Source of the DNA: Deltaproteobacteria bacterium
GTDB taxonomy: Bacteria; Bdellovibrionota_C; UBA2361; OMII01
DNA: 32,944 nucleotides
Reading direction: 5' to 3'
NCBI GenBank assembly: GCA_947488865.1
Contig: CANLCB010000012.1
Coordinates: 1-32,944, forward strand
The notes beneath the pieces are model-generated. The model did not search any database. It was not told the origin of the DNA and saw nothing but the letters and a program-made list of their open reading frames with translations. This document shows, piece by piece, positions 26,056-27,408 of this stretch (its first letter is position 1; every line of letters starts with the position of its first letter). The position numbers were made by a program, and so were the translations under genes.

Positions 26056-26079
26056 CTCCTCCGCGAATGCGCAATAAAA

Positions 26080-26103
26080 AAGCCGACCCTTTCGGGCCGG
26101 CTT
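26080..26103. terminator. Bidirectional intrinsic terminator
   Basis: AAGCCGACCC-TTTC-GGGCCGGCTT is a 10-bp stem with one mismatch. It has an A-run on its left and a T-rich CTTCTTCTTT on its right, so it can stop both the plus-strand ABC gene and the minus-strand RRM-bS18 gene that converge here. Confidence 0.85.
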
Positions 26104-26134
26104 CTTCTTTCAAAGAGTTGTAGCTATCTTAAAA

Positions 26135-26698
26135 CTACTCTTGGATTGACGTGAACGCCATCAGTCCAAGGCTTTGAGCGCGCTTGATAGCCTTACTTAC
26201 CTTGCGCTGGTTGTACGCTGTAAGTCCAGTAAGACGACGAGAGAGGATACGACCACGCTCGCTCACGAACTTTGAAAGCATAGCAACGTCTTTGTAGTCG
26301 ATAGTCTTGCGGGGATCCTCAGTGAAGGGATCAAGCTTACGACGACGCTTGAAAAGCTGCATGCGCTGAATCGAAGGAAGTGGCTCGAATTTACGACCAC
26401 CCTCGCTGCCACCCTCTGAAGAAGAAGGGCCAGCGTTTTTACCGCGATCCTCGCACACCTTCATTGGGCGTCCGTTTACCGCGCGGTTATTGAGAGTCTC
26501 GATAGCAGTGCGAGCATCTTCCTCGCGCTCCATCTCAACGAAAGCAAATCCCTTCGAACGCTTCGTCTCACGATCTGAAGCGACGACCACGCTTACTGCT
26601 GGTCCGATCTCTTCGAAGAGCTGAGTGAGCTGCTCGCTCGTTACTTCGAAATCGAGGTTGCTGATGAAAAGCTTCTTTTTAGTAACACCGGAATTCAT
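26135..26698 (-). CDS. rpsR: RRM domain fused to ribosomal protein bS18
   Basis: The 187-residue protein has two parts. Residues 8-84 are an RNA recognition motif with RNP2 LFISNL (10-15) and RNP1 KGFAFVEM (49-56), like cyanobacterial and eukaryotic RRM proteins. After a Ser/Gly linker (about 88-102), residues 113-187 are a full bS18: KRRRKLDPFTED, IDYKDVAMLSKFVSERG, LSRRLTG and a closing AIKRAQSLGLMAF. bS18 is normally a free protein of about 75-90 residues encoded beside rpsF, ssb or rplI; none of these is in this window. The zinc-ligand-like Cys of some bS18 is Leu here. The ATG has AGGAG five bases upstream, so the fused start is well supported, with no internal start of comparable quality seen. 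Confidence 0.93.
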   Translation of the reverse strand: MNSGVTKKKLFISNLDFEVTSEQLTQLFEEIGPAVSVVVASDRETKRSKGFAFVEMEREEDARTAIETLNNRAVNGRPMKVCEDRGKNAGPSSSEGGSEGGRKFEPLPSIQRMQLFKRRRKLDPFTEDPRKTIDYKDVAMLSKFVSERGRILSRRLTGLTAYNQRKVSKAIKRAQSLGLMAFTSIQE

Positions 26699-26752
26699 GA
26701 ATACTCCTAGAACTCTTTGAGGCGGCGAGGGTATCGCTCACACCGATAAATG

Positions 26753-27031
26753 TCAAACAAGAGCGAACTGAAAGAGCGCATAAATAGAACGTCGTGCTAA
26801 CTTAAAGTAACTTAAAAATACTATTGACGCCACATTCCAACCAAGGTACAGATAGACCTCAGAAATCGTGAGCGAGCGCAACCACTTGCGGTGCTGAGGC
26901 TGATCAGCCTTAGGCCATAAGCAAAGCCGGTTCGCACAGACTCTGCAGCGAGGGAGGCCAATTTGATGTCCGGCACTGTTGTCAGTCACCTTCAAGGCGT
27001 AGCAACCCTCGCTTGTCTTCACGTTCAACAA
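26753..27031 (-). CDS. Possible small protein, unrecognised
   Basis: A 92-codon frame from a TTG with GGGGGT several bases upstream. It has a Cys cluster CRVCANRLC (about 30-38) and a hydrophobic stretch YLGWNVASIVFLSYF near 62-76. It resembles no family I know, and the start codon is weak. It occupies most of an otherwise empty 395-bp gap between rpsR and the next plus-strand gene, so it may be real or chance. Confidence 0.25.
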   Translation of the reverse strand: MLNVKTSEGCYALKVTDNSAGHQIGLPRCRVCANRLCLWPKADQPQHRKWLRSLTISEVYLYLGWNVASIVFLSYFKLARRSIYALFQFALV

Positions 27032-27093: not shown

Positions 27094-27408
27094 ATGAGTA
27101 ATTCTGCGAACAAGTTCTTGCCTGAAGACGATACCGAAGCATCCTCCCCGGTGAAGCCGGAGAGAAATCTTCTGGCAGCCGTGCTTGCTCGAGCTATTTG
27201 CGACGCTTTTGGTACCGCCCACTGTGAGCGCCACGTCGTTCGAAGTGCTCGTCAGTGGTTGTTCGGAAAAATTACTCCAAAGCGACCATTTAGCTTCGCG
27301 TGGGTAGCGCTTCATTTAGATCTCGACCCACTTTCTCTTCAAGAGAGTCTCCGTCAGTACGAAGGAAACCCAGAGGCGATTCAAGAGCGTTTGAGCCTCC
27401 TTCGCTAA
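27094..27408 (+). CDS. Small soluble protein of unknown function
   Basis: 104 residues, not recognised. A polar, acidic N-terminus (1-22) precedes a compact helical-looking domain: NLLAAVLARAICDAFG, ERHVVRSARQWLFGK, and FAWVALHLDLDPLSLQESL. The last two phrases have the rhythm of a helix-turn-helix with basic residues between, so a DNA- or RNA-binding role is possible; this is inference. The start is ATG 27094; GGAG lies 13 bases upstream, farther than ideal. A strong terminator follows the stop, so it is a single-gene unit. Confidence 0.65.
   Translation: MSNSANKFLPEDDTEASSPVKPERNLLAAVLARAICDAFGTAHCERHVVRSARQWLFGKITPKRPFSFAWVALHLDLDPLSLQESLRQYEGNPEAIQERLSLLR

Follow-up and report, generated by a model that had tools for sequence, protein, structure and literature searches.

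Ribosomal protein bS18 fused to an RRM domain in a poorly known bacterial phylum

Results

The fused gene and its expression signals

The window analyzed here, a stretch of 32,944 nucleotides, carries an rpsR gene fused to an RRM, encoding a protein of 187 aa (Table 1). The Pfam profile RRM_1 (PF00076) matched residues 10-79 (E = 8e-23; 80.5 bits against a cut-off of 20.7), and Ribosomal_S18 (PF01084) matched residues 131-180 (E = 3e-24; 85.5 bits against a cut-off of 21). With the NCBIfam model for S18, TIGR00165, the fused protein scored 78.6 bits (cut-off 38.75), the match covering 68 of the model's 70 positions. For the NCBIfam model Rbp_regulator (NF058537), it scored 88.4 bits, below the cut-off of 100. 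A first-pass annotation of this DNA had described a complete RRM with both RNP motifs in frame with a complete bS18; these profile matches and the recurrence of the fusion in 39 genomes bear the description out, and we add that the gene lies on the minus strand.

Table 1. Coordinates of the fused gene, its protein domains and its expression signals in the window.
Feature	Position	Strand	Basis
rpsR fused to RRM, 187-aa RRM-bS18 protein	26135..26698	minus	ATG 26698-26696, TAG 26137-26135; 39 homologous fusions
RRM domain, residues 8-86 (approximate)	26441..26677	minus	Pfam RRM_1; RNP2 LFISNL, RNP1 KGFAFVEM
Linker, Gly/Ser/Glu-rich, flexible, poorly conserved, residues 87-104	26387..26440	minus	low pLDDT, dN/dS 0.23, variable length
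Conserved stretch leading into bS18, residues 105-120, with invariant Q111	26339..26386	minus	dN/dS 0.061
bS18 domain (C- form, cysteine-free), residues 116-183	26150..26353	minus	TIGR00165, PF01084, cysteine count
Shine-Dalgarno (SD) AGGAG, 5 nt before the ATG	26704..26708	minus	sequence; -6.8 kcal/mol pairing with the anti-SD
Possible -35 element TTGACA; candidate -10 weak	26751..26756	minus	TTTGACATTT kept in genus; TTTGAC common to all nine members
Likely intrinsic terminator 3' of rpsR, hairpin and U-run, common to the convergent ABC transporter gene	26076..26107	minus	-24 kcal/mol, z -5.4

The first-pass annotation had also placed the gene under a strong ribosome binding site. This holds within the window's genus and fails in most relatives, where the SD of rpsR is mostly weak. 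A consensus scan reported no promoter at the TTGACA of rpsR. The terminator hairpin was missed by the pattern scan, probably because its stem absorbs the U-run. Since rpsR has its own hairpin with a U-run and the flanking genes lie outside any operon with it, the fused gene looks monocistronic in the window. In other bacteria, the leader of the rpsF operon can be regulated by S6:S18, and the fused protein, having left that operon, could use its RRM as an autoregulatory device that binds its own mRNA. The monocistronic arrangement, with its own terminator, fits such a role, as does the strong SD, whose flanks are conserved within the genus. Nevertheless, we regard it as unlikely: the window contained no Rfam match and hence no known leader RNA, the SD-containing leader folds no better than shuffled sequences, and the RRM is common to the phylum whereas the leader is not. 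The same folding result led us to reject an SD-sequestering leader hairpin of rpsR, which had been suggested by eye in the genus, where a CCTC or CTC segment 5' of the SD (26699-26726, minus strand) resembles a short SD-masking hairpin.

Next to the fused gene, a frame at 27094-27408 on the plus strand encodes a protein of ~104 aa whose family is unassigned, with no Pfam match above the cut-off and no NCBIfam match. It neighbors rpsR in at least 15 loci of the phylum, oriented divergently in the window's order and co-directionally elsewhere. Where it is co-directional with rpsR, LexA- and RecA-like genes lie beyond.

The fused gene as the only bS18 gene

A bS18 was present in 40 of the 46 genomes of the window's phylum. 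We read every one of these loci and found the RRM and S18 in one frame in 39 of the 40, so the combination of RRM and PF01084, for which the first-pass annotation had proposed a search in related genomes, is indeed widespread there. A separate, normal rpsR, which would contradict a ribosomal role of the fusion, was found neither in the window's MAG (1.47 Mb, 70% complete, 86 contigs; one S18) nor in the 20 high-quality genomes of the phylum (completeness of 90% or more, contamination of 5% or less), all of which had exactly one rpsR, always fused. The exception among the 40 was G005 (L024:1136-1674; the same locus as L042, MAG HTM.30), in which a 28-nt gap in the RRM breaks the frame, so that S18 is left in a separate frame that has an ATG of its own; the coverage of this contig is 2.9. 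This gap is possibly an assembly fault or a natural loss of the RRM. Besides its fused copy on contig C54, G022 has an unfused, cysteine-bearing S18 of another type (L013, contig C34), which adjoins a second, divergent rpsF and is a probable contaminant. As this was the only unfused S18, we rejected a second, normal rpsR in the phylum.

The location between rpsF and rplI is common for bS18 genes without defining them, and the fused rpsR does not lie there. In the window's genome the cluster reads ispE, prs, rplY, pth, rpsF, rplI (genes named from their translations by eye), and 55 nt separate rpsF from rplI; the G019 cluster has the same order from prs onward. In all 13 phylum loci having both genes, rplI came directly after rpsF, and the gap was too short for a 75-codon gene. 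Because there is no second rpsR and the rpsF-rplI slot is empty, the fused protein, judged from these gene inventories, almost certainly serves as the bS18 of the organism's ribosomes and bears an RRM arm.

Distribution and origin of the fusion

A fusion profile search of 383 genomes gave 40 matches, all in the window's phylum, and none in the 337 genomes from elsewhere in Bacteria. Two further fusion scans, centered elsewhere and partly overlapping the first, gave matches in phylum members only, and a scan of public contigs, which reaches close relatives only, found the fusion only in contigs of the same kind. Members of the phylum are filed publicly as delta proteobacterium, Oligoflexia or Proteobacteria.

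In a tree with the standalone RRMs of the phylum and a few from elsewhere, the fused RRMs formed one clade (98/86, from 80 columns and with unsure inner forks), which suggests one origin and fits a single fusion event in the phylum ancestor. Some standalone RRMs branch next to this clade. Genomes of the phylum commonly encode standalone single-RRM proteins with Gly-rich tails, up to four besides the fusion (e.g., L171 = G033, L170, L110 = G025). RRM proteins are uncommon in most bacteria and were found in 2 of 14 control genomes. The fusion could plausibly have arisen when rpsR came to lie downstream of a standalone RRM gene and the two frames were joined, the linker then being derived from the Gly-rich tail.

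Conservation and predicted structure

Among the nine genus members, the median dN/dS values of the RRM, the linker, the segment before S18 and S18 were 0.055, 0.23, 0.061 and 0.033, respectively; with dS near saturation, these values are rough. By this sequence measure, the RRM and S18 are both under strong purifying selection. With the same architecture in 39 distinct genomes and such low values for the RRM and S18, the RRM-bS18 fusion is real and far beyond chance. An assembly or binning artefact might be suspected from the incomplete and fragmented state of the MAG, and is ruled out with hardly any residual probability by the 39 separate genomes, the named public contigs and the joint purifying selection.

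The RNP1 residues G50, F51 and F53 were invariant in all 39 fusions, and RNP2 position 11 was F in 38 of them and F or Y in all. From the conservation of these residues, the RRM of the fusion probably binds RNA. Its Foldseek matches were canonical RRMs, including those of HuR, TIA-1 and the chloroplast ribosomal protein cS22. Q111, directly before bS18, was likewise invariant (39/39), and the bS18 part of 38 of the 39 fusions had no cysteine, which is the C- form. From R85 to Q111, the linker varied from 18 to 58 aa among the fusions and was rich in Gly, Ser and Arg. In the AlphaFold model, pLDDT exceeded 90 over most of both domains and fell below 50 at residues 88-101, and the pTM was 0.43; the model thus predicts two rigid bodies on a flexible tether.

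The fused gene might also yield free bS18, through internal initiation at Met113 or cleavage of the linker, with the RRM part as a separate small Rbp-like protein. A methionine near residue 113 occurred in 21 of the 39 members; in the window's order an in-frame ATG is common there and would give a bS18 of ~75 aa, and the linker is protease-accessible by prediction. However, this stretch had no start codon in 6 of the 39 members and only a TTG in two more. SD pairing at the ATG was about zero or positive in the order, and SD-like pairing was found in only a few others, for example L088 and L094. Internal initiation, which the first-pass annotation had set against its own reading, was therefore rejected as a conserved route, the start being not conserved and mostly without an SD across the 39 members. 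The fusion has nevertheless been retained across all lineages, and we consider a supply of free bS18 by either route very unlikely.

Translation machinery of the phylum

S1-domain proteins were present in all 46 phylum genomes, most of which have a bS1-sized frame of ~570-600 aa, and 42 of the 46 encode bS21; we accordingly rejected the idea that the RRM substitutes for a lost bS1 or bS21. The 16S 3' end carried GGATCACCTCCTTT, the intact anti-SD, in 14 of 16 matched sequences; one of the other two was incomplete and one looks foreign. An altered anti-SD in the phylum was rejected on this ground. The foreign-looking case is L167 (G028, contig C323), a 16S-like match that ends in GGATCATT, without the anti-SD, and is perhaps eukaryotic contamination. 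SD-like motifs at starts were compared with those at internal ATGs in a small sample of 42-49 genes per group with guessed start sites: the frequencies were 48% versus 17% in the genus, 31% versus 13% in the rest of the order, and 23% versus 10% in the rest of the class. SD motifs are thus used to a moderate degree, and perhaps little outside the genus; unlike in Bacteroidia, they are not absent.

Discussion

Comparison with known systems

The fused protein shares with canonical bacterial bS18 (TIGR00165 / PF01084) a full-length S18 domain above both cut-offs, its status as sole copy, and the retention of rpsF and rplI. It differs in its N-terminal RRM, the linker and the conserved segment before S18, in the position of its gene outside rpsF-rpsR-rplI, and in having no cysteines. 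Plant mitochondrial RPS19 is likewise a small-subunit ribosomal protein with an RRM fused at its N-terminus. However, RPS19 is uS19 on the head, encoded by a plant nuclear gene, whereas here bS18 on the platform is affected in a bacterial phylum. Another case of a canonical RRM in a bacterial-type small subunit is cS22 (PSRP2) of the chloroplast 30S subunit (PDB 5mmj chain v, 5x8p chain v), which ranked among the best matches to the fused RRM in both sequence and fold. cS22 is a separate protein with two (tandem) RRM stretches, while the fusion has one RRM joined to bS18. RRMs in small subunits were already known; what makes the present case of interest is its universality within a lineage and its mechanistically central site.

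Cyanobacterial Rbp proteins have a single bacterial RRM of the same kind, although the fused protein misses the Rbp_regulator cut-off. One of them, Rbp3, is reported to interact with ribosomes (Hemm et al. 2025, cited in PMC12475003). It acts in trans as a free protein, whereas the sequence here predicts an RRM covalently joined to bS18. In Bacteroidia, a platform pocket of bS21, bS18 and bS6 sequesters the anti-SD (PMC9976891). The resemblance lies in a lineage-wide change of bS18 beside the anti-SD and in a strong SD on some rps genes. The Bacteroidia platform is without an RRM, and in the window's phylum SD motifs are reduced at most and not lost.

Proposed role of the RRM arm

An RRM-armed ribosomal bS18 is well supported by phylum-wide presence, sole copy, single origin and purifying selection. 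As for its function, we propose that the sole bS18 holds a permanent RRM arm beside the mRNA docking site, where the arm would grip single-stranded leader RNA and aid initiation; on the strength of sequence and analogy, we give this a probability of roughly 0.5. The sequences show that rpsR is missing from the prs-rplY-pth-rpsF-(rpsR)-rplI cluster and has been joined to an Rbp-like RRM, seemingly in one event. Since no other bS18 exists, each complete 30S subunit would carry one RRM. In characterized ribosomes, the N-terminal tail of S18 contacts the SD:anti-SD duplex (PMC4611024), which agrees with the first-pass placement of bS18 on the platform near the mRNA exit. If this location can be transferred from other bacteria, the RRM, tethered to the bS18 N-tail, would lie on the platform at the place where mRNA docks. 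In the RNAP-30S complex, the beta-flap of the polymerase packs on S18 Phe10 and Phe13, and the RNA exit opens toward S1, S2, S18 and S21 (PMC5655137). The RRM could bind the single-stranded leader of an mRNA, or nascent RNA leaving RNA polymerase. It would thereby raise the local mRNA concentration and help initiation alongside bS1, mostly for messages with a weak SD. Selection of mRNA, initiation and assembly, the functions that the first-pass annotation had suggested, may each be served by such an arm.

More tentatively, and with doubts of our own, we consider a selective, lineage-wide capture of mRNA, in which every 30S subunit has an RRM at the SD site and initiation proceeds partly by RRM recognition of the leader in addition to SD pairing and bS1. 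The only moderate enrichment of SD motifs at starts outside the genus counts for the proposed role of the arm in initiation. On the other hand, the phylum retains bS1-type proteins and an intact anti-SD and thus shows no obvious gap in its initiation functions, and SD use is reduced at most in our small sample.

The RRM could instead be an rRNA-binding or assembly element, which anchors or chaperones bS18 on a lineage-specific feature of the platform rRNA without contacting mRNA. Most ribosomal protein extensions bind rRNA; the invariant RNP residues fit one fixed RNA target, and within the order the 16S 3' regions have diverged (74-80% to the query used). However, a long, unconserved linker of such variable length, together with the low confidence in how the two domains are placed relative to each other (pTM 0.43), suits a mobile arm better than a fixed anchor, and we hold this explanation to be rather unlikely.

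Significance

In our literature search, whose journal coverage was incomplete, we came across neither an RRM-bS18 fusion nor any bacterial phylum in which a ribosomal protein bears an RRM; the first-pass annotation likewise knew of no described fusion of this kind. Few proteins are as conserved as those of the ribosome, and it is very unusual for a bacterial ribosomal protein to be fused to an RRM throughout a lineage. The fused rpsR and the empty rpsF-rplI slot together provide a clear molecular marker of a poorly known, uncultured phylum-level lineage. For the biology of these bacteria, the RRM-bS18 protein suggests a built-in, lineage-wide capture or regulation of mRNA. With the fusion point predicted to lie at the mRNA docking site, the lineage can serve as a natural experiment on whether a fixed protein arm can make bacterial ribosomes selective among mRNAs.
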